A stretch of DNA of 64,000 bases, taken from NCBI GenBank assembly GCA_015179125.1, contig WHVA01000085.1, positions 225,867-289,866 on the forward strand. The letters run 5' to 3'. The position numbers and the translations under genes were made by a program. The stretch is from Gautieria morchelliformis (Eukaryota; Basidiomycota; Agaricomycetes; Gomphales; Gomphaceae). Shown in pieces: positions 15,621 through 64,000 of this stretch (position 1 is its first letter; every line of letters starts with the position of its first letter). The notes beneath the pieces were generated by a model that did not search any database, was not told the origin of the DNA, and saw only the letters and a program-made list of their open reading frames with translations.

Positions 15621-15746
15621 CGAGGTGACTTGTAGTATTTTCTTGAAGTGTCGGAAATTAGCATATCGGATAAAATCGGATTTTCTTTTGAATTATGACT
15701 TGAGAAATGTAAGCGAGCCGTGGTGTCGGAATGAGGTCGGAATTGA

Positions 15747-18700: not shown

Positions 18701-19452
18701 CACGTCCGGGAAGTCACGATATTCTTCCGGAACTGAGCTCATGTCGACCGGGGCGGAAGTCGAGGCGGAACGAGCCTTGACTGAAGCCGAATCGGAGAGG
18801 TGAAGCTGGAAAACGGTCGTATCTTCTTGCCGTTGCAATACGCGGAAAGCGGTGGTGGAAACGAGCGCAATTCGAGGAGCTTCGAGGGACGGAGGTGCTA
18901 AAGCGGGACCGGAGTGCGGAACTGAATCCACAAGCGGAGTTGCAGAAGAGGCCTGAGCCATCTTTGCAGAAGACGTCGGAAATGACGGAAGTTGATCCGG
19001 GGTACGGAACTGTATTTGACCCAATGCCCAGTTAATCGACGGATTATATCGGGTGAGCCAATTGTGTCCTAGTACAACGGAACAACTAGCATCTAGCGGA
19101 GTAACGTAAAACGTAACTTCATGGTTGTCCCCAGTAGCGAAACGGATAGACAGATCCACAACTTGGGAAATTCCCGTGTTGGAAGACCCGTCGAAAAGGC
19201 GGAGCGGAATAGTCGGAATGTTGCGGGTCGGAAGTTTATGTTTCAAAACAAAGTCGGAATCGAGGAAACAATGAGTCGAACCGGAGTCGACCAATGCTGT
19301 AAACGGGGGTGCGGAAATTGTGTCGGAAGTGAGCGGAACAGAGAGAGAGTCGGAGGACGAAAGAGCGGATGCGTTGAGTTTAACCTCGTTTGTCGCACGA
19401 ATGGGGTCAACACAGCCCTCAGCTCGTGCGGAGGCCGGAGGACTGCTGACTA
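15747..19452 (-). pseudogene. Pol polyprotein of element B (protease, RT, RNase H, integrase, chromodomain), one frameshift
   Basis: The frame enters from gag by a -1 shift at 19453-19459. Protease has LVDSGSTHCFLDS. RT has [36 protein letters not shown] and the catalytic YIDD. RNase H has LETDASDYALAAILS and YDVHDKELLAI. The integrase zinc-binding region has SGHQGQNKTLDIIRRTY and CTTCMRAK. One frameshift near 16855-16870 separates this from the integrase core (MDFIEKLPKSSGYDTI, VTSDRGSEF, ERTNQTLEQYLR: the D, D, E catalytic residues). A chromodomain ends the protein (YEISEILNSK, YLVKWAGYENTDEETSWI), which in chromoviruses directs insertion to marked chromatin. Apart from the one shift it is intact. 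Confidence 0.9.
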
Positions 19453-19459
19453 TTTTTTT
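19450..19459 (-). promoter_or_regulatory. Candidate -1 ribosomal frameshift site at the gag stop
   Basis: On the coding strand gag ends TCA AAA AAA TAG. The heptamer A AAA AAA (19453-19459) is in the X XXY YYZ register, and pol is open in exactly the -1 frame: it reads ATA GTC AGC onwards without a stop into VDSGST. Homopolymeric A7 also makes a sequencing indel possible, but the gag and pol frames fit the biological explanation without any correction. Confidence 0.7.
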
Positions 19460-20877
19460 GAATCCGCAGCGGGAACCGCTTCGGATTTCTCTTCCGTCTT
19501 TGCTGCGCGGCCCTTGGCCTTAGCAGCGGAGGCGGAAGCGCGAGTGCAGTCGCGAGCGACGTGACCTCCTTTGCCGCAGAAGAGGCAAAGGTTGTTGTCC
19601 ATGCGACGCTGGCGTTCTACAGGGGTTAGTTTTCCGTCTTTCCCAAGTTTGTCGGAAAGATCCGGGGTGCTCTTCCGGGCGTTGGTGTTAGAACCAGAGG
19701 CCTGGTTGTTCCGAGGGGTGTTGTTGTTGTTCCGGTTGCCAGAGTTGGATCCGGAACTGTTGTTGTTGTTGTTTCCGGAGTTGGTGTTTCCGGAATTGGT
19801 CTTCTTCTTGTCTTTATCAGACTTCTTGTCGGAAGACTTGTCGTTCTTGCTCTGGGTGGAAGTTTCGCGAGCGATCTCGGAATGTCTTTCCCAGTAGCGT
19901 GAATCGATGGATTGGGCGAGGTTGCGGAGGTCGGTAAGGGTGGCGGGTTTTCCGACGCGGGCAATTTCATCCTTGATGCGGGATGGCAAGCCCATGTAAA
20001 ACTGGCGTCGGAGTGCGGCTTCTCCCCATTGGACTCGAGGAGCGAGCTGCTGAAACGTGACGATATATTTAGCTATCTTATGAGTGTCTTTCATGCGAAG
20101 CTTATCGAGTTCGTTTTCCGCATCGGCTTCCATATCAAATGGTCCGAAGTTGCTGCGGAGTTCGGAAATGAAATTGGGGTAATCGTCGGCCCAGTTGACG
20201 AGAGCGAACGGATCCATGAGGGCGGGTTCGAAATAGTCGAGCGCCGTGCCTCGGAGATAGGAAAGGGCATAATTGACCTTTCGTTCGTCGTCGGGAAAGG
20301 CGTCGGGACGATCACGGAAATTGAGTTGAAGCTGAACCAGAAATGGCTGGAGCTTCTTGGGGTCGGAACCGTCGAACTGATCTGGTTCGCGGACTTTTGT
20401 CTTGGGGCGTGGTGGTGCTTGGGCCGGGCGCTGGAGTTGTCCGGCTAGCATGGCGATGGCTTGTGCAAGATCCGGAACTGGCGCGGGCGGAACTGGGTTG
20501 GCGGGAATCTGAGGTGGAATTGGAGGTGGAGGACCGCCGGGAGGACCGCCTGGGGGACCGCCGGGTGGGCCGCCATGAGGGCCGCCTGGAGGGCCGCCTG
20601 GAGGTGGTCCTGGTGGAGGTGGTGGTGGTGGAGCTGGGCGTCGGAATGACGCTGCTGTTTGTTCGCCGCTGCTACTCGTCGAATTCCCGTCATAGTCGGG
20701 ATTGTCGTCGGGAACTTCTTCGAAACGTTGCGGAAAAGCATCGGAAAGCTCATCGTTGGCACGAGAGCTGCTGGAGGGTTCCGCGTGCCTTGGTGCTGCG
20801 GATCTAAGACTGCCAAAATAAGAGAGAGCTTCGACAGCTCCTGCTCGAGCTGAAGTAGCTGTGGTACGAGGAGGCAT
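19450..20877 (-). CDS. Gag of element B with CCHC zinc knuckle
   Basis: The 475-residue ORF is intact. The order is: acidic and Ser-rich N-terminus, a Pro/Gly-rich stretch (about 95-130), the retrotransposon gag/capsid domain (VREPDQFDGSDPKKLQPFL through AQSIDSRYWERHSEI, about 160-310), a Lys/Asn/Ser-rich linker, and a single zinc knuckle CLFCGKGGHVARDC (CX2CX4HX4C) near 435-448. The start ATG at 20877 lies 34 bp inside the 5' LTR (20911-21603). The end is a TAG at 19450-19452 directly after a slippery A7 run, so Gag-Pol is probably made by -1 frameshifting. Confidence 0.92.
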   Translation of the reverse strand: MPPRTTATSARAGAVEALSYFGSLRSAAPRHAEPSSSSRANDELSDAFPQRFEEVPDDNPDYDGNSTSSSGEQTAASFRRPAPPPPPPPGPPPGGPPGGPHGGPPGGPPGGPPGGPPPPIPPQIPANPVPPAPVPDLAQAIAMLAGQLQRPAQAPPRPKTKVREPDQFDGSDPKKLQPFLVQLQLNFRDRPDAFPDDERKVNYALSYLRGTALDYFEPALMDPFALVNWADDYPNFISELRSNFGPFDMEADAENELDKLRMKDTHKIAKYIVTFQQLAPRVQWGEAALRRQFYMGLPSRIKDEIARVGKPATLTDLRNLAQSIDSRYWERHSEIARETSTQSKNDKSSDKKSDKDKKKTNSGNTNSGNNNNNSSGSNSGNRNNNNTPRNNQASGSNTNARKSTPDLSDKLGKDGKLTPVERQRRMDNNLCLFCGKGGHVARDCTRASASAAKAKGRAAKTEEKSEAVPAADSKK

Positions 20878-20910
20878 AGTGATAGTTATCGGGTGGGAAT
20901 CAGATAATAC

Positions 20911-21603: not shown

Positions 21604-24600
21604 TATGTACATCACTCCGTTCGCCGATCGCTCTCTCCCTATTCGACGGAAAGCCAGCCACTGCTGGTTTCATTCACGAATACCTAGATACTAGTCTCAC
21701 CTTCAGCGACTCCTCTTCGCAGGACGTTTCGCTACTTGTCACAAAGTTACACCCTTCGGCTGCAATCGTTCTTGGGCTTCCGTGGCTTCGCTCTACGAAA
21801 CGCACCATCAATTGGGGCTCTCTCTCAATTACCTTTCCTTCCAGCACCGGTTTCATGCTCCCACGTATGACAGTCGCCATGGCCTGTATGATGATTTCCC
21901 CGCTGGCTATCTTCAACAGTATCCCCAAACTCCACACTGCATCGATGACATCGCCACTGCCAGTTCCTGGTTCACACCCGTCCCCGCCATCCTTGGGTTA
22001 CATCCTGAACACGGCGATTGGACCACTCTCCTATGTCCTGGTCCTTTCACCGGACATCACTTCTTCGCCCACTCCGATTCCGAATCTTTCTGGTTACGAA
22101 CAGACGTTCGACGTGGATGGCGAACCCTTGCTTCTCTCAACCAAGCCGATCAAGGATCGCTCCTCTGAGTCCTCTATATCACTTCCTAACAATCTCATTC
22201 GTCCATTTTCAGTCACGAAAAAACCGATTATAGAAACCGAACCTATCCGACCAAAAACAGAGCCCGTTCCGCGTCATTCTCGTCCCTGTACACCATGTAC
22301 AGAATTACTGATCGATGACCACCTCCCATTCCATTCTTCACCTCCTGATCCACCTCCGACGAGGAGGGTAACGCCACATATAAGCCTAATCAGCGCAGCC
22401 GCCTTTGAACTAATCATGAAACTTGGCGAAGAAGAAACCTTCATGTTAAACATGCACCCTTCCATCCCTGAGCCGAGTTCGCTTTGCGCTGTAGGCAACA
22501 CACCAGCCCCGACCACACTCCTCCACGAAAACCCTTTACCGAAGGACGAGTTGGAAATGTTCAGGGCTGTGGTACCAGAGGAGTACCACGACTTCGTCGA
22601 TATCTTCTCGCGTGCTAAAGCCAAAGACCTGCCCCCACATCGCCCTTATGACCACACCATTGAAATCGAGAATGATGGCACACCACCTCACGGCCCAATA
22701 TACCCACTCTTGAACAGCGAGTTAGAGGCTCTCCGCGAATATCTCGAAGAAATGCTTGGCAAGGGATTTATCCACTCCTCCCAATCACCCGGTGGCGCCC
22801 CTGTTGTCTTTGCGAAAAAGAAGGATGGCACACTGCGAATGTGTGTGGACTATCAAGGGCTAAATCGTATCACGCGAAAGAACAAGTACCTTATCCCACT
22901 GATTCCAAGCCTTATTGACCAACTCAAAAGTGCAAACGTCTATACCAAATTCGACCTTCGCGCCGGGTTCAATAATGTTCGGATCGCCTCTGGCTAAGAG
23001 TAGAAGACAGCCTTCCGAACTCAATATGGGTCCTTCGAATATCTCATCATGCTGTTTGGATTAATGAATGCTCCGGCGACGTTCCAACACTTCATGAATG
23101 ACATCTTCCAAGACATGGCTGACGTCTTCGTTGTAGTCTACCTTGACGACATCCTCATCTTCTCCAAGAATAGGGAAGACCACTTAGAGCATGTCCGAAT
23201 GGTCCTTGCCCGTCTTCGAAAACACAACCTCTTCATAAAGTCAGAGAAGTGCCTCTTCCATTCGAACTGGGTTGAGTTTCTCGGATTTATCATCTCTCCT
23301 GCTGAGGTCTCTATGGACATCGAAAAGACAGCTGCAATCACAAAGTGGCCTGTGCCGACGAACATTCGCGAAGTCCAATCGTTCCTGGGCTTTGCGAACT
23401 TCTACAGAAGATTCATCATTTCGTTCTCAGACATTGTCCTGCCACTCACTCGCCTGACCAGGAAGGATACTCCATTCGCCTGGGACGCGAAGCAACAGGA
23501 GGCTTTCGAAGCACTCAAGGCTGCGTTCTCACAGGCCCCAGTCCTCATCCACTTCGACCCGAATAACCCGATCGTCATCGAAACGGAAGCCTCCGACTAC
23601 GCCATCGCCGCCATCATCTCTCAGATCACCCCCTCCGATGGTGATATCCACCCGATCGCCTTTTATTCGCGAGGAATGGCACCTGCCGAAATGAACTACG
23701 AGATCTATGACAAGGAGCTGCTCGCCATCTTTTGTGCCTTCAAGCAATGGCAAAACTACCTCGAAGGGGCATCCCACGTCATCCTCGTCCTCTCCGACCA
23801 CAAAAACCTTGAGTACTTCGCAACTACAAAACAGCTGACCCGATGACAGGTCCGTTGGTCCGAACACCTGTCAGGGTTCAACTATATCATTCGCTACCGG
23901 GCTGGGCGACTTGGCACAAAGCCTGATGCATTGACCTGTCGGGGCGACGTGTACCCAAAAGGGGGGGATGGTGCTTACGCATTGGCAAATCCCCATAACT
24001 TCCAGTCGATGTTTAAGACCGGGCAACTCATTCGCGCCATCATCCTTGACTCTGCATCACTGTTAACATCCATCCAACAGGGCCAGTTGACCGATCCCTT
24101 GTCCTCAGCCCAGATTACTCGTCTTCAGTCTCAATCATTGGCAATCACCCCTTCGAATGTGAAGTCAGACCCCTGGTCACTTGGAGAGGATGGCAGAATG
24201 CTGTTATACAAACAGCGAACGTATGTCCCCGATCATAATGATATTCGCTTGGACATCCTTCGCTCGCTGCATGATAATCAGTTAGCAGGCCACCCAGGGA
24301 TCAGCAAAACGATGAAAAACATTCGGAGACAGTATCATTGGCCGAACATGTCCACGTTTGTCACCAACTATATCGGCTCCTGTTCCAAGTGTCGCCACGC
24401 TAAGTCCATTCATCACAAACCCTTCGGTCCACTTCGCTTTCTACCCATCAGCCAATGACCTTGGGATTCAATCTCCACGGACTTCATCGAAGGGCTCCCA
24501 CCATCGGATGGGCACGATATGATCCTTGTCATTGTCGACAGGCTAACGAAGATGGCCCTGTTCATTCCGACATTCTCAGACATCGATTCGGGAGACGTCG

Positions 24601-24642
24601 CCATGTTCTTCCTTCAACACGTATTCGCTAAACACGGTAGCC
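21604..24642 (+). pseudogene. Element A pol, part 1: protease remnant, RT, RNase H, first part of integrase
   Basis: The protease remainder has AIVLGLPWL. RT has [46 protein letters not shown] and catalytic YLDD. RNase H has ETEASDYAIAAIIS and YDKELLAIF. The integrase zinc-binding region has AGHPGISKTMKNIRRQYHWP with CSKCRHAK, and the core begins [16 protein letters not shown]. It is dead: stops TAA and TAG interrupt RT near 22996-23004, a TGA replaces an expected Arg after KQLTR (about 23844), and another TGA falls at PISQ*PWDS (about 24456). A C solo LTR cuts the integrase at 24643. Confidence 0.9.
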
Positions 24643-34806: not shown

Positions 34807-36487
34807 ATATTCATCGTGTGATGGGCTGGAAAAACAAGACAAGTTTAAGGACTGTGAGCAATTTTTCAAGAAAGTAGGTGTGCGTTGGTTTGAGTTAGCA
34901 CGACTGCCCTACTTTGATCCAATTCGGATGACAATAATCAATCCAATGCACAATTTATTACAAGGTGAGTTCAACAATAAATTATCCACCAGTGTATGGT
35001 TTAAACTAAAATATCATTCAGGCGTTGTGAAAAATCAGTGGTATTCAGTGTGGATCAAAGGCAACACATTGCGAAGTGCAACAGATAAAAAATGCTGTGA
35101 ATTGGATCTCATTCACGACTACCTCGGTACTGTAAGTCACAACGCTCATCTTGGCCTACCCAATTTAACCCAGAGTCAGTTCAAATTGCCGTCCTTCATC
35201 GGTAGGCTCATAAGCCAGGTGGGTGAACCGGCAGGTGTCAGCTTAATGGCAGATGCCTACAAGCTTATGGCGACAGTGTACGGACCGATTATAGTGAGTC
35301 CAATCATGTATTTATTAATGCTGTTAAGACTGGTTGACTAATCTTTTACCACCAAACCAGGTGCCCATGGTATGTGTGAAGTATGCTGATGAACAGGTAC
35401 TCGAACATGAACAGGCACTTGTTCGTTGGGAGACGAACGATAAAGCTTGGGAGAAGCAATACGGGGCAAAGTACCACGAGCAAGTCCTCCATGAATCGGC
35501 CACTGGTACCACTGGCCGCCAGAACGTGGAAAAGAGTGCCGATAAGGTGAAGGTTCCAATTCATCCCAAGAAGCCTCAACTGCGCATGCAACCAGGTGAG
35601 GTTGATCTATTCATGCAGCTAGCGGCCGCGATCAAGATTTATACATCATATGAAATCACGACTGAGAATATCAATCGGGCAAGTTTCCTTTATCAGGAGT
35701 ATCTCTTGGGTTTCAAGGAGGTAAGTATATCACAGCATTTAAATAATTACATGTTCACTCCACCACAGATGTATGGCAAGAAGGCTGCGCTCAAGCCTAA
35801 TCATCATTGGGGCGTTCATCTGGGATTGCAAATATGCAACTTCGGACCCATGTATGGGTTTTGGTGCTTCCTAGATGAGAGATTGAATAAGCTCTTGAAA
35901 GGAGTAGAATTGAACAACTGGGGCTGTGGGCAGATTGAGATCTGCATGATGTGAGCATGGGAACAGGATGTGCAGGTTTGAGAATTAGTATGTATTTTTT
36001 CTCTCTCAGTAATACCACCATTTCAATGCTACAAATGCAACACTTGCACAGAATGAACAATTTTCCATGGATCACCTCGAATCTATGATGTGGAATTGTG
36101 CTCCACAACTATATGGTCTGCTAGGGTCGCTGTTGACTTCTGATATTGACCTGGAGAAGCGTAGGGTAGAAATAACACAGCTGCGAAGCAGGCAGCAGAC
36201 ACGAAGCTTGACACATGGTTTGGATGTGTCCCTGTGTGCAAACATGGCACATGGCGCTTACATTTGTCGCCAATCGCCCAGAGGCGTTATGAGCAACTTA
36301 AAGTTTCGGAGTATGAAATACACCCCTTGGATTTAGCCGTGCTACACCCATATGCATACACAGGAGCCATAATGCTGATGGGCGATGGGGTTCATGAACC
36401 CAGGTATGTACAGTTGGTAGTTCATTGGATCCAAATTGTCGATCGGTAGCTGCACGTTTCATCAAAGATGCCTCTGAAACTCGTGGC
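34807..36487 (+). pseudogene. TNP2-like DNA transposase, C-terminal part, decayed
   Basis: Readable blocks: FFKKVGVRWFELARLPYFDPIRMTIINPMHNLLQG (about 34870-34970, the catalytic-core landmark), KLPSFIGRLISQVGEPAGVSLMADAYK, then after an intron ENINRASFLYQEYLLGFKE and LKPNHHWGVHLGLQICNFGPMYGFWCFLDERLNKLLK with NNWGCGQIEICMM (about 35790-35952). Later fragments (YEQLKVSEYEIHPLDLAVLHPYAYTGAIML, about 36290-36385) are in shifted frames. Element C begins at 36488. The gene was already split by the inverted A-type LTR. Confidence 0.82.
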
Positions 36488-36944
36488 TGTAAGGGCAACC
36501 CTGGCTAGTCGTGGAGATCACACTACCACACAACTGACAAGGGGAAATCCAAAGTCTGTATAAATGAACAGAGCATACAAGAGAGGGGATTCTCACCTGA
36601 CAAGGGGAAATCCAAAGAGAAAAGTCTAAGGACCCCCAATGTCAGCGAGCCCGTATTATACTACGCTGCGCAGCCAGGGACAACACTTGGCACCCGCCAT
36701 CAACCCTGCACCTCCCTGACCCTTGATCGACCCTTGATGTCACCTATTATGCGAGTCGCTTGATTTCCGACACTGTTCCGAGGGTGGAACTCGGAAATTG
36801 GAGTGGAACTCGGAAGGTGAACAGAACTGGTAGAAGTTCTCCCAGAAGCGGAATCATTTCCGAGAGCGGAGGCGGAGATGGAATCGGAATCGGAGTCGGA
36901 AATGGAGTCGGAACTGGAAATGGAAAACAGGGTGTCCCCTGACA
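36488..36944 (-). repeat. 3' LTR of element C
   Basis: It is 457 bp. On the minus strand it runs TGTCAGGGGACACC...GGTTGCCCTTACA. The pol ORF continues 245 bp into it. Confidence 0.9.
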
Positions 36945-38616
36945 TCACCCCCTCTCTAGCGTGCTGCGTCCTCGAAGCACGGGACACGAGGGATTGAAAT
37001 GCCAACGAGCGGATCCGGCGAGGGGCACCGGGATGTGTCCTATAGAACTCCCCGAGCTTGTCCGGGGCGGAAACATCTTGCTCCGGGACCCACGAATTCT
37101 CTTCGTACCCATACCCTTCCCACTTCACGAGGAATTGGAGTCGTCCTCGCACAAACCGGCTGTCCAGGATCCGTTCCACCACATAGTGCTCCTCCCCATC
37201 TACAATCTCTGGCAGAGGTGGCGGATGAGCCTTCCGACCTGGAATTGGGTCTTCAAGCATAGGGAGTAACTTCACCACGTTGAAGACGGGGTGGAGGCGG
37301 GACATGGACATCGGAAGTCGCAGGCGGTATGCATTCCGTCCAACCCTCCGCGTCACTGTGAAGGGCCCAAGGTAGCGGTGGGCAAGCTTCTGTGAAGGGC
37401 GTGTGGTGCGGATGTCCCTTGCATCTAGATACACCTTGTCTCCAACTTGGTACTCTGGGGCAGGAACCCGGCGTTGGTTGTAGTACCTCGCCATGTCATC
37501 CTTGGCCTTTGCAAGGGCCGACTTGGCTTCCGAAAGGGTGGAGTCCATGCGGTCTCGGAACTCGTTGACCGTCTCGAGTCGGGACTCAGCCTGGCGTGGT
37601 TCGAAGCCCATCCGCGGGTGTCGTCCGGAGTCGAGCATGAAGGGAGTCTGTTGTGTGGCGGAATGGACATGGTTGTTGTATTGGAATTCCGCCAGCGGAA
37701 GTAATTCATCCCAGTCGTCCTGCCTCTCATTGACAAAGAGGCGGAGATATTGCTCCAACTCCTGATTGACCCGTTCCGTCTGTCCGTCACCCTGCGGATG
37801 GTACGCCGTGGTGGTAGCTAGCTTTATGCCGAGCAGGCGGTAGAGCTCCCGAGTCAGTTCCGCGACAAACTGCGGACCTCGGTCGGAAACAACTTGCTTC
37901 GGGAGCCCATGCAACTTCCAGACATGTGCAAGGAACAGGCGGGCCGCTCCGAGGGCTGTGATCGTCGTGTGCGTCGGAATGAAGTGGGACACCTTGCTTA
38001 CCGAATCAACGACGTTCATGATCGCGTCGTAGCCATGAGACTCTGGGAGTTCAACAATGAAGTCGACGCTGATGGTGTCCCAGCGGGATTCGGGAATCGG
38101 GAGCGGAACAAGTTCTCCGACGGGTGGATGTCGTTGCGCTTTGGTTCGGAGACAAAGATCACATGTCTTCACGTACTGTCCAATGTAGCGGGACATCTGA
38201 GGCCACCAGTAATTCCGAGCCACTAACTCCAGCGTCTTCCACCTGCCAGCATGCCCAGCGACCCGCGTGTCATGGTGCTGGGACACGATGCGGCGGCGGA
38301 GGTCCACCCCATCTGGAACGTAGACCTTGCCTCTGAAGTGGAGCAGCCCATCCCGTTCCGACCATTCCGCTGCCCGTACAGACCGTGAGTGCCCTTTCCG
38401 AAGTTCCTCCACTGCCTTCACCACCGACTCCTCCTTCTCTCCATTCCGGTACTGTCTCCGGATGTCCCGGAGCATTTCCGCTTCCGCTCCAACTGCAGTC
38501 ACTCCTTCTAGGGCGCGGATTGCAAAGAGACTTGGGCGGAGCAGTGTCATATCCGCATTGTCTCCGCTTCCGCTTCCATGATCCGCACGGCGGGATAGGG
38601 CATCGGGCTTGCCCAT
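36700..38616 (-). CDS. Element C pol, C-terminal ORF: RNase H end, integrase, chromodomain, LTR-encoded tail
   Basis: The open frame is 638 residues. It contains MGKPDALSRR (end of RNase H), the integrase zinc-binding region (AGHAGRWKTLELVARNYWWP, CDLCLRTK), the core (SVDFIVELPESHGYDAI, VSDRGPQFVAEL, YHPQGDGQTERVNQELEQYLR), the GPF module (YLGPFTVTRRVGRNAYRLRLP) and the chromodomain (HYVVERILDSRFVRGRLQFLVKWEGYGYEENSWVP). The last ~80 residues (Ser-rich, SISSSDSISDSDSDS) are read from the LTR. This is the best-preserved part of C. Upstream pol lies in other frames. Confidence 0.85.
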   Translation of the reverse strand: MGKPDALSRRADHGSGSGDNADMTLLRPSLFAIRALEGVTAVGAEAEMLRDIRRQYRNGEKEESVVKAVEELRKGHSRSVRAAEWSERDGLLHFRGKVYVPDGVDLRRRIVSQHHDTRVAGHAGRWKTLELVARNYWWPQMSRYIGQYVKTCDLCLRTKAQRHPPVGELVPLPIPESRWDTISVDFIVELPESHGYDAIMNVVDSVSKVSHFIPTHTTITALGAARLFLAHVWKLHGLPKQVVSDRGPQFVAELTRELYRLLGIKLATTTAYHPQGDGQTERVNQELEQYLRLFVNERQDDWDELLPLAEFQYNNHVHSATQQTPFMLDSGRHPRMGFEPRQAESRLETVNEFRDRMDSTLSEAKSALAKAKDDMARYYNQRRVPAPEYQVGDKVYLDARDIRTTRPSQKLAHRYLGPFTVTRRVGRNAYRLRLPMSMSRLHPVFNVVKLLPMLEDPIPGRKAHPPPLPEIVDGEEHYVVERILDSRFVRGRLQFLVKWEGYGYEENSWVPEQDVSAPDKLGEFYRTHPGAPRRIRSLAFQSLVSRASRTQHAREGVMSGDTLFSISSSDSISDSDSDSISASALGNDSASGRTSTSSVHLPSSTPISEFHPRNSVGNQATRIIGDIKGRSRVREVQG

Positions 38617-40626
38617 GGTGCGGCCGGGCGGTGGTGGAGCATGAAGTCAAACCGGGACAGGTGTAGGGACCACCGTGCTTGTCGTCGGTTCAACTTCTTA
38701 GACGTGCGGAAATACTCAAGGTTCTTGTGGTCTGTCCAGATCTCAAATGGGCATAGAGCACCCTCGAGGAAGTGTCGCCACTCCTCCAGCGCTCGGATGA
38801 TTGCCAGCATCTCCTTGTCATGGATCTCGTAGTTCCGCTCGACCGGACTGAGACTCTTAGAGAAGAAGGCAATCGGATGCCACCCCCCACCTTCTTCCGA
38901 TGACTGTTGCGACAAGACCGCTCCGGTAGCTGCGTCGGAAGAATCCGCCTCGACTCGGTAAGGGCGAGAGTCGTCGGGAAAGATCAGGACCGGGGCGGAA
39001 GTGATCAGCTCTTTGAGTTTGTCAAAGGAAGTCTGTTCCGGCTCTCCCCACCGCCATCCAACCTCCTTCTTGGTGAGGTCGAAGAGGGCACGGGCGTGGC
39101 AGGAGAAGTCCTTGACGAACCGCCGGTAGAAATTGACAAACCCAATGAAGGACTGGACTTCCTTCTTGTTCCGCGGCACCGGCCAATCCGACACACCGGA
39201 AACCTTGACGGGGTCCATTTCCACCTTTCCTTCCGACACAATCACCCCAAGATACTCTATCCGCGTCCGCTCAAATTCGCACTTTTCCGGCTTGAGACAC
39301 AGGTTGTACTCCCGGAGTCGTTCCAGCACTCTCCGCACTACTTCCCGATGTTCGGACATTGTTTTTGTGAAGATGAGGATGTCATCGAGGTAGACGCAGA
39401 CAACCCCTTCTGCTATCATGTCACGGAAAATGTCATTCATCATCGTCTGGAACGTGGCAGGACTGTTGGTGAGGCCAAAGAACATGACCTGTGGCTCGAA
39501 GAGTCCTCGGTTGGTGCGGAATGCGGCCTTCCACTCATCTCCCTCCCGGATCCGGACATTATTGAAGCCCCAGCGGACATCCAGCTTAGTGAATACTTCG
39601 CCCCGCGGAGTTGTGTGATCAATTCGGAAATGAGCGGAATGGGGTACCGGTTCTTGATCGTGATCGCATTCAAGGCCCGGTAATCCTGCACAAGTCTGAG
39701 CGAGCCGTCCTTCTTCTTGATGAAGAACACCGGAGATGCCATGGGTGACTTGGAGGGGCGGATCCTCCCTGTATGGAGATTTTCCGCAAGGAATGCATCG
39801 AGCTCTACCTGCTTCTTGGGTGACAGCGGGTAGACCTTGCAGTTGGTGGGCTTTGACCCAGGCTCCAACTCGATGGCATGGTCCCACAGTTTCCGCGGAG
39901 GCAGGGCATCAAACGACTCCTTGGAGAAGACGTCCTCAAACTCCCGCAGGTACTCCGGAATTTCCGCCTCCACTCTATCATACCTCTTAGAGGCTTCAGC
40001 AAGGCGTTGCGAAATATTTCCGGTGGCGCGGATGTGTTCCGCCTCCGGCGGAAGGTTTACGTACAGCAAGCGCTCCCCTTCCATCAGAGTGTCTTCCAGG
40101 CCGAGTCGGATGACGTCGGAATTGGAATTGGAAGGGGGATCCGGTTCAAATTCCGCTTCCGAGTCTCTTCTGCAAGCAGTGGATGGGGGCCGGAACGACA
40201 TGTCTGTATGAGCCGTTCGGTCTTCCGCTGCTCCTGGCGTTCCTTCCGCACTTCCGACCGGCACATGTGACACTTGGCTGGACATCGACTCATCATACCT
40301 TCCAGTCTGCCAATTGATCTCCGGGTTGTGCTCTGAAGCCAGGTGAACCCGAGGATGATGTCTTGCTTCCCCAGGCTGGTGACTGCAAAGGAAGTGCGTT
40401 CCGAGTGCCCATCGTAGCGGAGAATTGTGTCTACTATCTCCGTGATGGACCCTGCCTCATTGGGGCTTCCATCCACATTGAACACCGGGATTGCACGTTG
40501 CAACTTCCGCGTGGTCAGTCGGTTCCGTTCCACATAGTCCCGGTCAATAAACTGACCAGTGGCCCCGCAATTGACAAGGGCGGGTCCGGATTTGACTTCC
40601 GCCGTATCCGTCGTCTGGATCTCCAC
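38547..40626 (-). pseudogene. Element C pol, N-terminal part: protease, RT, RNase H, frameshifted
   Basis: The protease region is LVNCGATGQFIDRDYV (about 40570-40520), where the catalytic Asp of the usual DCGAT/DSGAT is Asn. RT is split over two frames near 39560-39890: [25 protein letters not shown] in one, [24 protein letters not shown] and catalytic YLDD (CVYLDDILIF) in the other. RNase H follows with EADSSDAATGAVLSQ and YEIHDKEMLAIIRALEEWRHFLEG. It is inactive as written. Confidence 0.85.
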
Positions 40627-40999
40627 TTTAATGACTAGTGACTTGGGCCAGGGGTGGCAGCAACAACATAGCGCTTCGGAAGGGTTTCTCCCAAGGGCGG
40701 ATGCGGGATGGACGGGGTGTCGGATTTGGTTTTTGTGTGACTTTATCCGGTGGGTCTGTAGAAGTGAGGGGAGTGGGGCTTTTCATTCTCTACTTCAAGA
40801 CAGGCAAACCGGTTATGTACAGGCAGCAGGGGCACACATCCACCCGCTGCGTGTCACAAAATCCGACGCATCTTCCGCTTCCGGTGGCCATGTTCCACAT
40901 TTTCGGAAACCTTCCGCAGTGGGCACTCCGCTTATGTCTGCAAGTGCAGGAACTCTGGAAGGAGCTCGAGTTTCTCCTCTGTGGTCATAAGCCGGATAT

Positions 41000-42204
41000 C
41001 AAAGGCTTGGGGGCACTTGCGGAGCATAGTGGCCTGGTTGTCGACATCGAAGCAGGTGATAGTTCCGTGGCCTTTTCCGCGCATGCGGTCGACATCCATC
41101 AGGGAGGGCCACTCTTCGAGGGGGAGGCGATGGTTCCTAATAGGAGTAGGCGGAGCAAGCGTCGGAAATATTTTCCGTGTGGGAATGAATGCACTTCAGG
41201 GTTTTGGCACAGGTGGAGTAGGACGAGTGGAACTGGTGTCATGTTCCGGCTCGTCTCCACGAAGGCCTCATTTGCTTCCCTGTTCCGGGACACCCTCTGC
41301 GCAGCTTGGTACCACCCTTCCGGGTCATCAAATCCGGAGCTCCATCCCCAAGCAGCGCGACTTGGTTCTGGAGTGTCGGATCAAGTCCTCGTCAGAATTT
41401 GATGACGATCGTCTTGTCGTCGTCATACTCCGCAAGGTCAATGAGCTCCTGGAAGCGATTGATGTAGTCATCGACCGGATCCTTGGCCTGGTACCAGCTG
41501 GTCCCCTCGAGCTTCATAAGGGCTGTGAGCTGCTCATTTTTTGGGCAGAACTGGTCGGAAAATGTTTTCTCGAAGGCGTCCCAGTCCCGGAAGTAGTTCC
41601 CCTTGCCCTTTGCTTCATGTCGGATCACCTTGTTTGCAAAACGGGCTGCGCGGTCCGACTTGAAAAAGGACAATGCCCAGTGGATCCGAGCCTGGTCATT
41701 CGGAAAGAGGTCTCTGACAATTGCGAAGTAGATGCTGCATGTGTTGAAGAATGCGCGTCCCTTCTCCCGATCTCCATCAAAGTCCGCCGGAGTTGCGGGT
41801 TTGACCTTTGCTAACTTCGCGGAGACCCTCTCTTCCGCTACTTCCGCCTTGCCGAAATCCGGATCATCCAGCATTTCATTTCCACCACTTTGTGGAATAT
41901 CTAACTTAGCCAAAATCGCCTGTAAGGCTGTTTCAATCGCGTCAGTCTTCATCCGGTTCCGCGTCAGTTCCTCCTCCATATTCCGAAGACGATCGTCCGC
42001 ATCCATGTCGGAAGGAGAAATATGGGACGGGATTTCCGGGGTTGGGAGCTCGATGTAAGAAGAGGGGCTGTCGTACGCTGTGTGTGTGGAAGAGGTCGTG
42101 ATCTCCGAGTCGCTGTCTCCGATTCCGAACGCACCTATGGCGAATGCAACGCGCAGCACGACCGCCAGTCCTCTAGGGGAGAGACTTTTCTGCTGTAAGG
42201 GCAA
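41000..42204 (-). pseudogene. Element C gag, degenerate
   Basis: The frame is open from 42204 to 41392: an acidic leader, a coiled segment (DDRLRNMEEELTRNRMK), then the gag capsid region (GRAFFNTCSIYFAIV, WALSFFKSDRAARFANKV, WDAFEKTFSDQFCP, DPVDDYINRFQELIDLAEYDDDKT). It then breaks. Further on (about 41040-41085) CFDVDNQATMLRKC has the CX2CX4HX4C spacing, but the second Cys and the His are replaced, so the zinc knuckle is dead. The first Met lies in the last bases of the LTR; Met at 42006 is an alternative. Confidence 0.75.
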
Positions 42205-42665
42205 CCCTGGCTGGTTGTGGAGATAACACTACCACACAACTGACAAGGGGAAATCCAAAGTATATATAAATGAACAGAGCATACAAGAGAGGGGATTCTC
42301 ACCTGACAAGGGGAAATCCAAAGAGAAAAGTCTAAGGACCCCCAATGTCAGCGAGCCCGTATTATACTACGCTGCGCAGCCAGGGACAACACTTGGCACC
42401 CGCCATCAACCCTGCATCTCCCTGACCACCCTGACCCTTGATCGACCCTTGATGCCACCTATTACGCGAGTTGCTTGATTTCCGACACTGTTCCGAGAGT
42501 GGAAGTCGGAAATTGGAGTGGAACTGGCGAGGCGAACAGAACTGGTGGAAGTTCTCCCAGAAGCGGAATCATTTCCGAAAGCGGAGGCGGAGATGGAATA
42601 GGAACCGGAACCGGAGTCGGAAATGGAGTCGGAACTGGGAATGGAAAACAGGGTGTCCCCTGACA
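42194..42665 (-). repeat. 5' LTR of element C
   Basis: It is 472 bp, TGTAAGGGCAACC...GTCCCCTGACA on the + strand, and related to the solo LTR at 24643-25118. Its final ~190 bp are dense in CGGAA and TTCCG pentamers. Confidence 0.9.
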
Positions 42666-48063: not shown

Positions 48064-48359
48064 GGTGTAGGTCAAGCGCCTCAGTAAGGTCAAATGCATC
48101 AGTAAGTCTAACATATCAGTAAGGTCAAGTACATTGGGGAAAACCAAAGTAATCAATTTGCATCAAGTAAAATGAAGTCAAACACATAAACCATATCAAG
48201 AGAAGTGGATAAAAAAAAATCAAGGAGCTCTAAGTAATACATCTTTATATACTATGTTGGTTGTGTCCAAACCCTCCTCAAGCAAGACCTTCACTCTGTT
48301 CCAATTGGTCCCTCTTGATACACCAACATACAACTGACCATGTCCAAACACTGGATATC

Positions 48360-53301: not shown

Positions 53302-53456
53302 AAGAGTAGAGAGAGGATAAAGATATCAATATCAGACTTACATTGCAAGCAGACTAAGGCAAACTCAGGGAAAACAGGCTGTGCGGATCTCAGATGGATT
53401 GCAAAGCCACTGATCCTAATATAAATACTGCAAATAGCAGATACAGTTACAAAAAC

Positions 53457-58414: not shown

Positions 58415-59076
58415 TGTTACGTATCGAGATTTCCACTAAGTCGGAACTGGAAAGGACAGCGGCTTCAACTTATAGGTTGCGCCCCCAATGAACTATCGTC
58501 CTAAGTATTTCAGAACTGAGTCGGAAGTCGGAAAGTACTGAACCAAAGGTTGGTCAGAACTTGAGTCGGAACTGAGGTGGAAGGCGGAAGACGGAAGGCG
58601 GAGAGAGACTGAGATCTTGCTAGACTCGCTGTACTAAGAACAGGAGATGGAGCGAAGGAAATCAAGTATCGAAGGCAATTATCTGATTGCAGAATAACAG
58701 ACATACATGACAGGCTTTTATACATAGAGCTGAGACAACAGGTAATGGGGTAGTACTAAGCAAATTCCGGGGGAAGCGGAAGTCGAGTAGACAATGCGTG
58801 GGAACTAACTAATTGGGAACAATGAGACTACAAGGGGGGTTCAGGGTAAGGTAGAACAATGGCAAAGAACAAGGGGTCGGGAAAACATATCTGACAACGA
58901 AACACAAGGAGGGCCGGACGTATGATCTTGATGAACAGTGAGGTGGGTCCGGTGGGTCCGAGTAATAGAGTCGAAAGAACAAGGGAAATGTACAAGGGGC
59001 GGAATGTCAGAATATCGGAGGGGCGGAAGGTGTTGCGGAACTGAGGGTCGGAAGTCGGAAATGAACGGTCGTAACA
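58415..59076 (-). repeat. 3' LTR of element B copy 3
   Basis: It is 662 bp, TGTTACG...CGTAACA, and diverged from the copy-2 LTRs (a few short deletions and substitutions). It keeps the dense CGGAA motif and a leftward TATA (ctatgtataaaagcc on the minus strand, near 58717-58731). Confidence 0.92.
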
Positions 59077-59120
59077 GTATCTCCCTTCTAAGGTCGAGCC
59101 CCGCGAGACCACAAGTCGGA

Positions 59121-59130
59121 TCACGTGACC
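59121..59130. promoter_or_regulatory. E-box-like TCACGTGACC upstream of the Zn2Cys6 gene
   Basis: It lies 67 bp before ATG 59197, between the LTR and the gene. The same TCACGTGAC palindrome occurs in both Helitron promoter-like modules (43758-43769, 47821-47830). In fungi CACGTG is bound by bHLH factors; function here is inferred. Confidence 0.4.
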
Positions 59131-59196
59131 TGTGAACAAACGCGTCAGAGTTCGAAAGATAGGCGGGAAACAAATGCGTCTTCATCTTTGTCCATC

Positions 59197-60411
59197 ATGA
59201 GCTCCCAACCCGACCTTACTAAAATGTCCAGCGCCGAAATGGAGAAATATTTCGATGACCTTCTCGTGCAGAAGAAGCTGGCTGAAAAACAGGTGGCCGA
59301 GGAAGCTGCGCGGAAAGAGAGGGAGCGACTGGAGGAGGAGTGCAAGGAGAAAGAGCGCAGGGAACAGGAGCGGAAGGAACAGGAGCGGAAGGAGAAGGAG
59401 GAGCGTGACCGTAAACGCCGCGAGGAGGAGTCGTGGAAGCGGGATGCGGCCAAAAAAGCTGCGGAAGACAAAGCCGTGGCGGAGAAGGCGGGAAAATCCC
59501 GGGTGAGTCGGAAAGGTTCTGCGCGTAGTCCCGAGACTGACAGAAAAACTTGCCAGAAGGTTGTCGATTCCGAATCCAAACCGGAATTGGAAGACACACC
59601 GGAAAGTACGCCGTCCCCTGAGGGGAAGGGGAAGCACAAGGAAGTAGTTCCTGTGCTGAACCTTGTGGCGGATCGGAAAAGGAGGGCGGACGAATTTCAA
59701 CAGGCCAGGAAGAACAAGATGGCCCGCGTCATCGATCTTCGGGAATTGGGACCGGAGAATCCCGCAACCCGGAAACGGAAGACGAGGGACGGGGAAGAAG
59801 AAAAGGCCCCCTGCGACACATGCAAGGTGAAGGGGCTCGAGTGCATATGGTCAGAAAATCCACAGGAAACCGCCTGCGAACGGTGCCACGACAAGAAGAG
59901 GCAGTGCGTCGTGGATGGATGTTCTGCGAGGGTGGAGCGGAAAAGGCGAAAGGTCGAGACCGAGGGGCCAGAAACCCCTAAGTCAAAACCAGGGCCGAGC
60001 GGGAAGAAGATGGCGGAAGGGGTTCCAGCGATTGGGAAATCGAACACCGTGTCACCTTTGCTTGACATTGCCGGGTCACTGAGGGGTATCCAGAGATCCC
60101 AGCGTGGGATCCGGAACATGCTTGAGGAGATGTCGGCAGTTCAACAGCAACAGCTGTTGTCTTTCCAAAACCAGATGACAGTCATGTTGGCGGTTTTGGA
60201 GCAAATCAAGCAGGAGTTCCAGTGGCGGAACAACGTACTCCGGGACCGAATGGAGTGGCGGATGCAGGAGGAGAATGGGGCGGAAGCGGGTACGAGTCAG
60301 GTGGTGGATACAAGGGTGGGGACCGAGTTGGTCAATGTGGAGATAGGGCATGCGGAAGAGGGTGCAGAAGCAGAGAACGAGGGTGAGGTGGAAACGATGA
60401 GGGAGGAGTGA
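59197..60411 (+). CDS. Antisense accessory gene of element B: Zn2Cys6 (binuclear zinc cluster) protein with coiled coils
   Basis: The ORF is intact at 404 residues, on the strand opposite gag-pol, between pol and the 3' LTR. The start MSSQPDLTKMSSAEM at 59197 is preferred; an in-frame ATG at 59125 exists. The order is: long Glu/Lys/Arg coiled coil (about 20-110), Ser/Pro/Lys-rich linker, zinc cluster at 206-237 with spacing CX2CX6CX10CX2CX6C (CDTCKVKGLEC, CERCHDKKRQC), a basic patch (RVERKRRKVE), then a Gln-rich amphipathic region (about 305-350: VQQQQLLSFQNQMTVMLAVLEQIKQE), a likely dimerising coiled coil, and an acidic tail. This is the layout of fungal Zn2Cys6 DNA-binding proteins, which bind CGG triplets as dimers. 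The surrounding element is saturated with CGGAA. DNA binding is inferred. It differs from its neighbour pol in being unbroken. Confidence 0.8.
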   Translation: MSSQPDLTKMSSAEMEKYFDDLLVQKKLAEKQVAEEAARKERERLEEECKEKERREQERKEQERKEKEERDRKRREEESWKRDAAKKAAEDKAVAEKAGKSRVSRKGSARSPETDRKTCQKVVDSESKPELEDTPESTPSPEGKGKHKEVVPVLNLVADRKRRADEFQQARKNKMARVIDLRELGPENPATRKRKTRDGEEEKAPCDTCKVKGLECIWSENPQETACERCHDKKRQCVVDGCSARVERKRRKVETEGPETPKSKPGPSGKKMAEGVPAIGKSNTVSPLLDIAGSLRGIQRSQRGIRNMLEEMSAVQQQQLLSFQNQMTVMLAVLEQIKQEFQWRNNVLRDRMEWRMQEENGAEAGTSQVVDTRVGTELVNVEIGHAEEGAEAENEGEVETMREE

Positions 60412-60541
60412 GTGTCAAAGTGACTTGTAAAATATTTCTTGAAGTGTCGGAAATTAGCATAGCGGAATATTAATCGGATTTGACCAATGACTTGAGAACT
60501 GTAAGAAAACAATGGGGTATCGGAAATGAGGTCGGAAATGA

Positions 60542-63500
60542 CTAGGGCGCGGAAATGGGGCCAGGCTTATCAGGATATGACTTGTGGAAATCAGAGACGA
60601 GGTCAGAGGCGTGGTCTAGTTCCGTGGCGGAAATCCACGAGGTCTCTTCATCGGTGTTTTCGTAGCCTGCCCACTTGACTAGGTACTGGAGTTGGCAGCG
60701 GTATCGTCTGTGAGCTTGGAGTTGAGAATTTCCAAGATCTCATATTCCGGTTCTCCATCGATGATGATTGGCGGAGGCGGAGGTTGTGCTCGATTCGGAA
60801 TTGTATTGGAACTGCGGGCTCAAGCATGGAGACATGGAATACCAGGTGTACTGCGCGCATATTGTCAGGAAGTCTGAGGGTGAAAGAACGACTGCCGGCC
60901 TTAGCGATGATCTCGTAAGGTCCAAGGTATTTCTCAGAGAGCTTCTTCGAGGGGCGAGTGGTGCGGAAGTTTTCAGCTTTGACAAAGACTTTGTCGCCTA
61001 TCTCGAATGCCGGTTGCGGAAGTGTTTCCGATCGGCGGAAGTCTGGTATCTCTTCTGGGCGGCGGAAATGTTCTCTCGGAGGTGTTGGTGAAGGTCGTCG
61101 AGTTCCACAACGAAATCTCGGGCTCTTGTAGACGCGAGGTCACATTCAGGGTGGATGGTGAGATTCGGGTGGTAGCCTTGTTGGCGTAAAAGGGTGAAAT
61201 TCCGGTGGTAGCGGAAGGCGCATTGTTGTAGGCAAATTCCGCAAGCGGAAGGAGGTCAGACCAATTGCTGTGTTGGTAGTTGCAATAAACACGGAGATAC
61301 TGCTCAAGGGTCTGATTAGTAGTTCCGTCTGTCCGTCTCCTTCGGGGTGATAACCGGAAGTGAAGTGGAGCTTCATGTCGAGAGCCTTGCCAGTGTGCGG
61401 AAAAAGGATGACACGAATTCGGATCCACGGTCGGAAGTGACATGGGAAGGGATTCCGTGCTTGGAAAAGACGTGGAGCACGAAGAGTTGGCGAGTTGGGC
61501 GGAAGTGATGGTGTCATAGGTCGGAATAAAGATGGACTGCTTTGTAAGGCGGTCAACGATCACTAGAATGGTATCATAGCCAGATGACTTAGGAAGTTTC
61601 TCAATGAAATCCATGGATATCGAATTCCAGGGTTGTCCGGGATCGGAAGTTGCTTCAGGAGGCCGTAGGGTTTGTGACGTTGAGGCTTGGCTCGCATACA
61701 GGTGGTGCATGACTTGCAGTAGTCTTGGACCATCGTGCGGAGGAGAGGCCAAGTATAGGTACGTCGGATTATGTCGAGGGTTTTGTTCTGGCCTTGGTGT
61801 CCTGAGAGCGGGTGATCGTGGCTTTGCTGGAGTACGCGAAGTCGTAGATCATTGGTATCCGGAACGTAGATCCGGGACTTGTACCGGAGAAATCGTCGGA
61901 ATCGAGGGACCATCCAGGACTGGTGGGGTCATCGAGGTGGGCTGCGGAGATGGGGTCGGAACGAAGTGCGGAACGATGTCGGAATGGAGAGACTCGGTGT
62001 CCATAATGATTGAGGCGGGAGTAGTGGAAACTGCAATGCTGTGGCACGCAGGGACGATGCCAGTTGCTCAGTGGAGAATACTGGGCGGAAGTTGTGGGAT
62101 TAACGCTGGCATAGTCGCTACTTCCCTCTTTTGGGTAGACGTCCCAACGTCTAGTGAGTGCGTCGGGTTTTGCTCCGAGCTTTCCGGGGCGGAAGCGGAT
62201 CACCATGTTGAACTGTGAGAGATATTCAGACCAGCGGACTTGACGGCGAGTCAAAATCTTAGTAGTCACGAAATACTCAAGGTTCTTATGATCCGTTACA
62301 ACGTCGATCGGATAAGTTGGACCTTCGAGGTAGTGTCTCCAGATTTTGAAGGCTTCGAAAATCGCAAGTAGTTCCTTATCGTGGACATCGTAGTTGAGTT
62401 CCGGGGCGGAAAAGGTGCGGGAATGGAAGGCGATCGGATGAATTTCTCCGTCGTCGGGGGAAATGATGGAAAGAATGGCGGCTAGCGCGTAGTCGGAAGC
62501 ATCGGTTTCGAGTACAAGTTGGGCATCAGGAATCCAGAAACCGAGTATGGGAGCCGTAGTGAAGGCCGATTTGAGGGCTTCAAATGCGGAACGGCATTCC
62601 GGAGTGAAATTCCATGGGGCACCCTTCCTGGTGAGACGCGTGAGTGGAACAGTAATGTCGGAAAAGTTATAAATGAAACGTCGGTAAAAATTGGCGAAGC
62701 CAAGGAAAGACTGCACATCCTTAACACGTCGGGGTTCCGGCCATTCTTGAATTGCCTTGACTTGTCCTCTGCCATGGTAAGACCTGTTGGAGAGAGGATG
62801 TAGCCGAGGTATTCGACCGTGTCGCGATGCCATTCGCATTTCTCTGCTTTTGCGTAGAGATGGTGTTTGCGTAGACGGCGGAGTACTTCGCGGACATGTT
62901 CCCGATGTTTTTCCGGTGTGTCGGAATAGATGAGGATGTCGTCAATGTAGACTAGACGCATACGTCGAGAAGGTCGGAAAATACGTCGTTCATGAATCGC
63001 TGAAAAGCGGCGGGAGCATTGGTTAGACCGAAAGGCATGACAACCCACTCAAAAGCACCGTAGCGGGTGCGGAAAGTGGTTTTCCCACTCGTCACCTTCC
63101 CGGATGCGGACAAGGTGATAAGCGTGCCGGAGGTCATTTTGGTGTAGATCTTCGCCCTGCGGGGAGTGTCGAGTAGATCGGAAATGCGTGGAAGCGGATA
63201 TTTGTCCTTCTTAGTGAGGGCATTGAGTCGCGGAAATCGACGCAGAGCGGAGAGATCCATCCTTCTTCTTGACGAAAAGGACCGGAGCGCCATGCGGAGA
63301 CAGCGAAGGGCGGATAAAGCCCATGTTGAGATGTTCATCGACAACTCTGGAGAGTCTGGAGTTCACTTTGGCAAAGGGAGTAGATCGGTCCAAGGGGCGG
63401 AGATGCTCCTTCTTCCAAATCTATCTTCAGATCGTAAGGTCGATGTTCAGCAGGTTTGTCGGCTTTGGCCTTATTGAACACGTCCGGGAAGTCACGATAT

Positions 63501-64000
63501 TCTTCCGGAACTGAGCTCATGTCGACCGGAGCGGAAGTCGAGGCGGAACGAGCCTTGACTGAAGCCGAGTCGGAAAGGTGAAGCTGGAAAACGGTCGTAT
63601 CTTCTTGCCGTTGCAATACCGGAAAGCGGTGGCGGAAACGAGCGCAATTCGAGGAGCTTCGAGGGCGGAGGTGCTAAAGCGGGACCGGAGTGCGGAACTG
63701 AATCCACAAGCGGAGTTGCAGAAGAGGCCTGAGCCATCTTTGCGGACGACGTCGGAATAGACGGAAGTTGATCCGGGGTACGGAACTGTATTTGACCCAA
63801 TGCCCAGTTAATCGACGGATTATATCGGTGAGCCAATTGTGTCCTAGTACAACGGAACAGCTAGCATCTAGCGGAGTAACGTAAAACGTAACTTCATGGT
63901 TGTCCCCAGTAGCGAAACGGATAGACAGGTCCACGACTTGGAAATTGCCGTGTTGAGACCCGTCGAAAAGGCGGAGCGGAATTGTCGGAATGTTGCGGGG
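60542..64000 (-). pseudogene. Pol of element B copy 3 (protease to chromodomain), multiply frameshifted, 5' end outside window
   Basis: It is co-linear with 15747-19200 of copy 2 and easily recognised: protease FATGDNHEVTFYVTPLDASCSVVLGHNWL (near 63850-63930), RT with [20 protein letters not shown], RNase H LETDASDYALAAILSIISPDD, SGHQGQNKTLDIIRRTY, IEKLPKSSGYDTILVIVD, and the terminal DKPG.. region. At least ten one-base deletions relative to copy 2 break the frame (for example near 61022, 61320, 61392, 62045, 62762, 62955, 63137 and 63229). Confidence 0.9.

Follow-up and report, generated by a model that had tools for sequence, protein, structure and literature searches.

A zinc-cluster gene carried antisense by a Ty3/gypsy retrotransposon of Gautieria morchelliformis and the CGGAA motif that saturates its family: a candidate self-recognition system

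VANDAL elements of Arabidopsis encode VANC proteins whose binding and demethylation have been shown experimentally (PMC5735166; PMC10398659), and the unrelated element AT9TSD1 carries the motif of another family and uses VANC6 in trans (PMC5735166). A possibly analogous arrangement was found in the basidiomycete Gautieria morchelliformis, in a stretch of 64,000 nucleotides of contig WHVA01000085.1 (assembly GCA_015179125.1, positions 225,867 to 289,866, forward strand), here called the window. It holds copies of a Ty3/gypsy retrotransposon with long terminal repeats (LTRs), element B, which bears an accessory gene for a putative zinc-cluster protein antisense to gag-pol and is saturated with the pentamer CGGAA. 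The protein is probably a self-specific activator or anti-silencer whose sites would be under selection along the whole element, and families lacking the gene would exploit such factors.

Antisense extra genes are known from LTR retrotransposons of plants and fungi as the aORF-3R class, including maize Grande, rice RIRE2, Silene Retand, and Botrytis Boty brtn, and a review describes their proteins as lacking clear database similarity, the only features mentioned being an SMC domain in PvRetro13 and, in some cases, nuclear localization (PMC7264820). The B gene resembles this class in position and orientation, lying antisense between pol and the 3′ LTR, and in its presence in many copies. The cases covered there have no assigned function, whereas the B gene combines a plausible DNA-binding domain, the zinc-cluster motif, with saturation by matching sites, which suggests one.

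An antisense zinc-cluster gene under purifying selection

Element B is a Ty3/gypsy chromovirus in which the Pfam domains Retrotrans_gag, RVT_1, RT_RNaseH, Integrase_H2C2, and Chromo all score above their cut-offs, as does the integrase domain rve (34.3 vs. 32.6). Its LTRs have the termini TGTTACG...CGTAACA, and the order seen from gag-pol is LTR, gag, pol with chromodomain, antisense accessory gene, and LTR. Two B copies lie in the window. Copy 1 (15115-21603) starts within the accessory gene, which is therefore truncated there; the whole gene is found only in the right-end copy (58415-64000), which also has a complete LTR and whose pol is cut by the contig end. The features of the right-end copy are:

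58415..59076, minus strand: B LTR with termini TGTTACG...CGTAACA, adjoining the whole accessory gene; the plus strand has 12 CGGAA and 1 TTCCG, counted over 58415-59078
59197..60411, plus strand: accessory gene, 404 amino acids, antisense to gag-pol
59230..59496, plus strand: N-terminal long helix, residues 12-100, putative coiled coil (AlphaFold2, AF2, with its predicted local distance difference test, pLDDT)
59812..59907, plus strand: zinc cluster CDTC-X6-C-X10-CERC-X6-C, residues 206-237 (cysteine pattern, invariance, sub-threshold Pfam match)
60049..60285, plus strand: C-terminal long helix, residues 285-363, putative coiled coil (AF2)
60286..60408, plus strand: acidic tail without predicted order, residues 364-404 (pLDDT below 50); proposed as a candidate for an activation region
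60412..60710, no strand assigned: stretch 3′ of the accessory gene with 6 CGGAA and 1 TTCCG
60808..64000, minus strand: part of B pol, ending at the contig end

An initial annotation of this DNA had proposed an intact 404-residue frame with the pattern CX2CX6CX10CX2CX6C between coiled coils, and the frame and the cluster are both borne out: the ATG is at 59197, the 404 codons end in a stop at 60409-60411, and the six cysteines span residues 206-237, within the Zn2Cys6 spacing range of CX2CX6CX5-12CX2CX6-8C. The coiled coils stand as predicted long helices on either side of the cluster, with mean pLDDT by block of 81-96 for residues 11-90 and 67 for residues 91-100 of the N-terminal one, and they are putative coiled coils. 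The name zinc cluster rests on the cysteine spacing, the invariance of all six cysteines in 11 of 11 aligned B copies, and the neighboring basic residues, because the Pfam score lies below the cut-off and the AF2 model is weak there (block means of just 61-70). On that score the window protein is not filed as a member of PF00172; a B copy at C193, taken together with its neighbors in the frame, exceeds the cut-off at 21.9 bits. A Pfam scan of the window protein up to E 0.1 listed only Zn_clus.

A single-sequence homolog search gave no protein at E up to 0.001, and a profile search (7995 scored candidates) gave two at E up to 0.01, of which one is convincing. This sole convincing relative, P0001, is an annotated protein of 339 amino acids from G. 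morchelliformis (Gomphales) itself, and its first 64 residues match the N-terminal end of one accessory copy at 89% identity. Beyond the helix that it has in common with the accessory N-terminus its C-terminal part is different, and it is either an annotation artefact or a gene fusion.

A search of the whole assembly (122 Mb, 1113 contigs), in which 98 of 1118 candidates were scored, listed 102 accessory matches, 29 of them without a stop across 410 or more of 428 residues. The protein is under purifying selection, as the initial annotation had required: dN/dS is 0.24 overall (373 of 465 pairs among 31 copies, 11 with intact frames). It falls to 0.04 in the 20-residue segment that contains the first cysteines of the cluster, a segment in which dS is close to saturation, and is 0.16-0.18 in the two segments that follow; two segments reach 0.8 and 1.1. 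Among B copies L031, L033, L030, and those of the window, dS is 0.25-0.94 in the accessory gene (five pairs) and 0.04-0.16 in gag/pol relative to copy 1. The diversity of the accessory region thus appears much older than that of gag-pol, as if a varied cassette had been set, probably by recombination, into a young and homogeneous backbone.

Saturation of element B with CGGAA

CGGAA and its complement TTCCG occur at 4.6-6.2 times expectation in five of five B sequences. One of the two ranks first among all 5-mers in each of 30 B-type loci, the best-scoring of the 102 listed matches. The excess had been noted in the LTR at 12973-13665, with at least 18 CGGAA and one TTCCG, and the count is exactly 18 and 1, against 1.5 and 0.2 in dinucleotide shuffles. 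It continues, as also claimed, through the accessory gene with its leader (59079-60411; 16/1 vs. 3.9/1.1 expected), the internal region of copy 1 (73/27 vs. 11.9/8.5), and the window end (60412-64000; 48/13 on the plus strand vs. 7.0/4.5). Both orientations together give 138 sites in copy 1 plus the solo LTR vs. 25.2 (standard deviation 5.0, z 22) and 91 in the window-end copy vs. 18.0 (z 17), each against 200 dinucleotide shuffles. A similar frequency in host DNA would have undercut the pattern; the host stretch of the window and two background stretches have 0.5, 0.6, and 1.3 times expectation. The features of copy 1 and its surroundings are:

12973..13665, minus strand: B solo LTR within gypsy element A; 18 CGGAA, 1 TTCCG
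15115..20910, minus strand: internal region of copy 1, with the accessory 3′ end (plus) and pol and gag (minus); 73 CGGAA and 27 TTCCG on the plus strand
15747..19294, minus strand: B pol with protease, reverse transcriptase (RT), RNase H, integrase, and chromodomain; 914-amino-acid frame
19450..20877, minus strand: B gag, 475 amino acids
20911..21603, minus strand: B LTR joined to the internal region of copy 1

The sequence at 12973-13665 is a B LTR, as first annotated, but the LTR that belongs to copy 1 is 20911-21603, with identical sites. TATGT on either side of 12973-13665 suggests a solo LTR lying within element A. The segments 12973-15113 and 20911-23053 form a 2.1-kb tandem duplication (99.9%) of B LTR and gypsy A sequence around the B internal DNA, which reflects either a local duplication with a solo LTR or a misassembly.

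Permutation of synonymous codons within each gene holds both the protein and the codon usage fixed, and against this null the sense strand of B gag has 10 CGGAA vs. 2.8 and 14 TTCCG vs. 3.5, and the 914-residue frame of B pol has 8 vs. 3.8 and 34 vs. 11.5. The pol gene of element D, from the separate clade C/D, has 40 CGGAA vs. 10.8 and 25 TTCCG vs. 8.0. The window accessory gene has 16 CGGAA vs. 8.5 (p=0.002), and 31 accessory copies average 16.9 vs. 8.9, with p<0.05 in 30 of 31 (p 0.07 in L021). No CGGAA excess was seen by this test in E, A-relative, F (L044), copia, or helitron genes or in one host ORF. Because both orientations exceed the permutation 2-4 fold in gag/pol, the excess there is explained neither by the protein nor by codon usage. 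The strand skew is strong in the LTRs (18:1 in B; 10:2 in A), whereas coding regions have both orientations in excess; the internal skews of B and D are opposite relative to gag-pol.

The unit is five bases, because flanking positions carry 0.3 bit or less in the internal regions of B, C, and D; flanks in the B LTR reach 0.8 bit, as small tandem duplications predict. A preferred dimer spacing emerged weakly at most among 36 tests in all. Everted TTCCG-N3-7-CGGAA pairs were commoner than under a phase-keeping jitter in each of three B copies, which are homologous (11/3.3, 7/1.6, and 6/2.1; p 0.007, 0.003, and 0.02), and showed no excess in three C/D sequences, and direct motif pairs were in excess in one locus of the sister family G (12/4.3, p 0.007).

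The sites are also kept better than most 5-mers. Among accessory copies CGGAA retention is 0.676 vs. 0.413 for all 5-mers (rank 16 of 297; 444 of 465 pairs), and among 33 LTRs 0.793 vs. 0.697 (455 of 528 pairs), the copy pairs not being independent. Where amino acids are unchanged, retention is 0.937 vs. 0.740 in codon phase 0 and 0.783 vs. 0.589 in phase 1.

Decay of B copies is dominated by CpG to TpG/CpA changes. At the loosest of three thresholds, motif CpGs have decayed in 55 of 394 cells vs. 60 of 462 for other CpGs in the LTR and in 117 of 665 vs. 272 of 1758 in pol, with slightly slower decay in the accessory gene (58 of 489 vs. 193 of 1210, p 0.03). Because motif CpGs decay like others in LTR and pol, the CGGAA excess is not a set of slow-mutating CpGs. 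The observed/expected (o/e) ratio of CpG in B is 0.98-1.21, not depleted; with motif CpGs removed it is 0.57-0.89 in B, A, C/D, and G/H and 0.44-0.50 in E and the A-relatives. This ratio was discarded as evidence of anti-silencing, being spoiled by family F, which has a motif and a ratio of 0.38-0.46, and by host DNA (0.54-0.77).

Motifs and zinc clusters of other families

A family-by-motif matrix of 34 rows is nearly diagonal. CGGAA is enriched in B (5/5) and C/D (4/4) at 3.1-6.2 times, GCGAA in gypsy A (2/2) at 4.3-4.8 times, and GCGAY in clade F (5/5) at 3.6-4.3 times, with GCGAA at 1.9-3.5 times in F, so that its motif is GCGA(A/T/C), or GCGAH. In E (4 rows), the A-relatives (3), the helitron, and the host window DNA none of the four codes exceeds 2-fold, the highest values being GCGAA at 1.8 and CCGAG at 1.9 in the A-relatives. 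Two further gypsy elements of the window belong to this comparison:

21604..24640, plus strand: gypsy A; CGGAA 0.9 times expected, GCGAA/TTCGC 4.3 times
36486..42665, minus strand: gypsy C, from clade C/D, in which no accessory gene was detected; 93 CGGAA/TTCCG, 5.4 times expected

The expectation that families lacking the gene lack the motif thus fails in part: C/D has CGGAA, and A and F have other motifs, with no accessory gene detected in them. E was considered as a CGGAA family and rejected: 17 of 41 CGGAA in its copy L041 belong to a B LTR inserted there (654-1348), most of the rest fall in a tandem repeat of the E LTR, and CGGAA/TTCCG in E coding sequence are 1 vs. 2.6 and 3 vs. 3.0.

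In the RT tree B groups with A and the A-relatives (support 1.0), and C/D with F across the split (0.98), so that the nearest kin of B carry GCGAA (A) or no motif (A-relatives) and those of D carry GCGAH (F). Aligned pol sequences have 35 motif sites in B copy 1 and 33 in D (L040), of which 4 coincide and 0.5 would by chance. The comparison suggests that the pol sites of B and D were mostly gained independently, a few possibly being shared or constrained.

The pairing of gene and motif has a counterpart in families G and H, reached by a PF00172 search of the genome, in which six distinct loci were read (L058 and L056 being one locus). They are multicopy zinc-cluster genes with LTR-like sequence upstream, judged by eye; B-like pol follows antisense in five of six loci, L056 excepted, with 70-84% nucleotide identity to B in stretches of 51-851 bases. 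Their proteins have the C-terminal helix region and acidic end in common with that of B, and the cluster of G copy L059, CDACRRRQTRC-X7-CQQCVDRKVRC, is unlike that of B. CCGA/TCGG occurs at 1.8-2.5 times expectation in six of six loci, mostly as GCCGA and CCGAG, and CGGAA at 0.3-1.8 times shows little or no enrichment. Under synonymous permutation of eight G/H frames CCGA has 92 vs. 70.2 (p=0.002), CCGAG 34 vs. 18.6, and CGGAA 19 vs. 17.6. A different motif therefore accompanies a different zinc cluster, and sequence comparison suggests that related proteins pair with different motifs, the B type with CGGAA and the G/H type with CCGA/TCGG. The gene-motif link of the initial annotation gains this sister case; its restriction of the motif to the element's own family was too narrow, C/D being equally saturated. 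The divergent G/H cluster with CCGA/TCGG, the motifs of A and F, and the CGGAA of C/D without a detected gene are new here.

Several side observations concern these motifs. Background stretch L035 has GCCGA and CCGAG at 2.0-2.6 times and may hold a G/H piece. The copia element at 54481-58491, named by eye, has GCCGA/TCGGC at 3.2 times expectation, with 14 GCCGA vs. 4.5 under synonymous permutation in its first ORF and no significant excess in the second; it may share the G/H address. AGCTA/TAGCT exceeds the permutation in the A-relative gypsy elements L043 and L055 (12 vs. 4.1 and 11 vs. 2.5) and is a possible non-CpG address. A multicopy frame of 46 amino acids (G000 C1048, C609, C272, C373, and others) matches the first part of Zn_clus and could belong to the missing reader of GCGAA or GCGAH.

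Elsewhere in the window, 43000-47100 holds minisatellite-like arrays (GHTMLGDILCLGTYYAW repeats) with long ORFs, probably by chance, and 48360-53301 holds helitron-like ORFs, named by eye. The helitron stretch 47500-53400 has a strongly reduced CpG o/e of 0.37 and zero CGGAA or TTCCG.

Proposed function, alternatives, and known systems

In the proposed mechanism the B gene would encode a DNA-binding protein that dimerises through its coiled coils and recognizes CGGAA, a CGG plus two bases, on double-stranded DNA. Copies with more sites would recruit more protein, so that CGGAA would be selected along the whole element, gained in the LTRs partly via small tandem duplications and in gag, pol, and the accessory gene via synonymous codons. 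Bound protein would most likely keep the element transcribable, as an activator through its acidic tail and/or by counteracting silencing by CpG methylation. In G/H a diverged cluster would go with a diverged motif, and families without the gene would have gained sites of their own and would exploit these factors in trans, C/D for CGGAA and perhaps copia for GCCGA; A and F would have acquired motifs whose reader did not turn up. Self-recognition appears the best explanation because it accounts for a double-stranded DNA site, an element-borne zinc cluster, maintenance of sites, and a motif that changes with the cluster.

A number of results weigh against this interpretation. A hidden Markov model of the B, G, and H proteins detected no accessory gene in the copies examined of A, C/D, E, and F, of which L042 (A), L040 and window element C (C/D), L041 (E), and L044 (F) are full-length or nearly so, though C/D is saturated with CGGAA and A and F with motifs of their own. 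The window protein scores 16.8 bits for Zn_clus (PF00172) against a gathering cut-off of 21, its AF2 model has a mean pLDDT of 64, and it has no sequence match in PDB. CGGAA retention in codon phase 2 is below average (0.239 vs. 0.593, n=134), and decayed LTR and pol copies show no local protection of motif CpGs from methylation. Both H copies and one of four G copies (L060) have a stop inside the cluster, CGGAA reaches 1.6-1.8 times in three of six G/H loci, and the 5-mer GCCGA fails the synonymous test as the literal G motif (18 vs. 15.9). The enrichment in G/H is no more than about 2-fold, and its motif was chosen post hoc among many k-mers in related loci.

The motif of C/D may reflect either use of the B protein in trans or a reader supplied by the host. 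A host-encoded activator or chromatin factor could bind CGGAA, with gypsy elements adapted to it and the accessory gene doing something else, and the saturated but apparently gene-less C/D, A, and F favor this alternative. It would need several host factors, as families within one nucleus differ in motif, and it leaves aside that between B and G/H the motif changes along with the cluster. Zinc-cluster proteins of the Zn2Cys6 type typically target CGG-containing sites, and both CGGAA and CCGA/TCGG contain CGG. A host reader is on balance rather unlikely.

The same sequence evidence, and the many decayed copies, would fit a self-specific repressor for copy-number control, with sites accumulating since repression lowers host damage. 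Selection between copies should purge any site through which an element silences itself, yet the observed sites are retained and recur in a separate clade, mostly at other positions. For this reason activation or anti-silencing is the preferred reading, and repression seems quite improbable. An RNA-level signal for packaging, export, or splicing would suit the LTR strand skew; enrichment in both orientations in coding regions and the opposite internal skews of B and D disfavor it, and it is very improbable. That CGGAA is a mutational relic, left where a protected context spares CpGs, gains some appeal from the dominance of CpG decay and from the CpG present in all four motifs, but it is contradicted by motif decay rates in LTR and pol, where it is ruled out, and by the different contexts kept by different families of one genome and the undepleted CpG of B, leaving it scarcely credible. 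Codon, amino-acid, or codon-pair bias of gypsy proteins, by which permutation still yields 8.5 of the 16 CGGAA in the accessory gene, is contradicted by the excess on both strands under that permutation, by the excess in LTRs, and by its lack in E and A-relative genes, and can be practically dismissed.

Element-borne activation or anti-silencing through CGGAA also invites a wider picture, held tentatively and with less confidence: the genome may be split among retrotransposon address codes (CGGAA, CCGA/TCGG, GCGAA, and GCGAH), some written and read by element-borne zinc clusters that change specificity, with other gypsy and possibly copia elements recoded synonymously as hitch-hikers on another's anti-silencing protein. 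If true, this would describe a community of hosts and hitch-hikers among the retrotransposons of one nucleus, and a motif shared with gene-less elements would make parasitism between retrotransposons measurable.

Many fungal Zn2Cys6 factors have a middle homology region. The B protein is like the fungal Zn2Cys6 factors of PF00172 in its six-cysteine spacing, basic neighbors, a helix beside the cluster, and CGG in the putative site, and differs in scoring below the Pfam cut-off and being carried by a retrotransposon. Transposon-borne TET/JBP dioxygenases offer a second fungal parallel in proposed escape from methylation, although that case involves DNA transposons and an enzyme, and B an LTR element with a candidate sequence-specific DNA-binding protein (PMC12730594). 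Within the terms searched in an open-licence library, and judged mainly by titles and abstract openings, neither an accessory protein of the Zn2Cys6 type nor saturation with a motif has been described for fungal LTR elements.

The closest likeness remains VANC/VANDAL (PMC5735166; PMC10398659). Both systems have an element-encoded protein and a short motif dense in its own family, the link between them being drawn here from sequence, and both have the same motif orientation in non-coding arrays and related proteins with different motifs. As to VANC-like confinement to one family, B is enriched and host, helitron, E, and A-relative DNA are not, but C/D is enriched too, an element of another family bearing the motif as AT9TSD1 does. 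VANDAL is a DNA transposon, whereas B is an LTR retrotransposon with a zinc-cluster candidate, and VANC motifs are 8-9 bp long and lie mainly in non-coding tandem repeats, whereas the motifs here are 4-5 bp and spread through coding sequence synonymously. The likeness suggests self-recognition for escaping or controlling silencing; by analogy, B would work like VANC/VANDAL but in a retroelement, written into synonymous codons. If true, this would be a second origin of density-based self-recognition, in another kingdom and in a retroelement, and a case of selection for protein-binding sites written into the synonymous codons of a mobile element.

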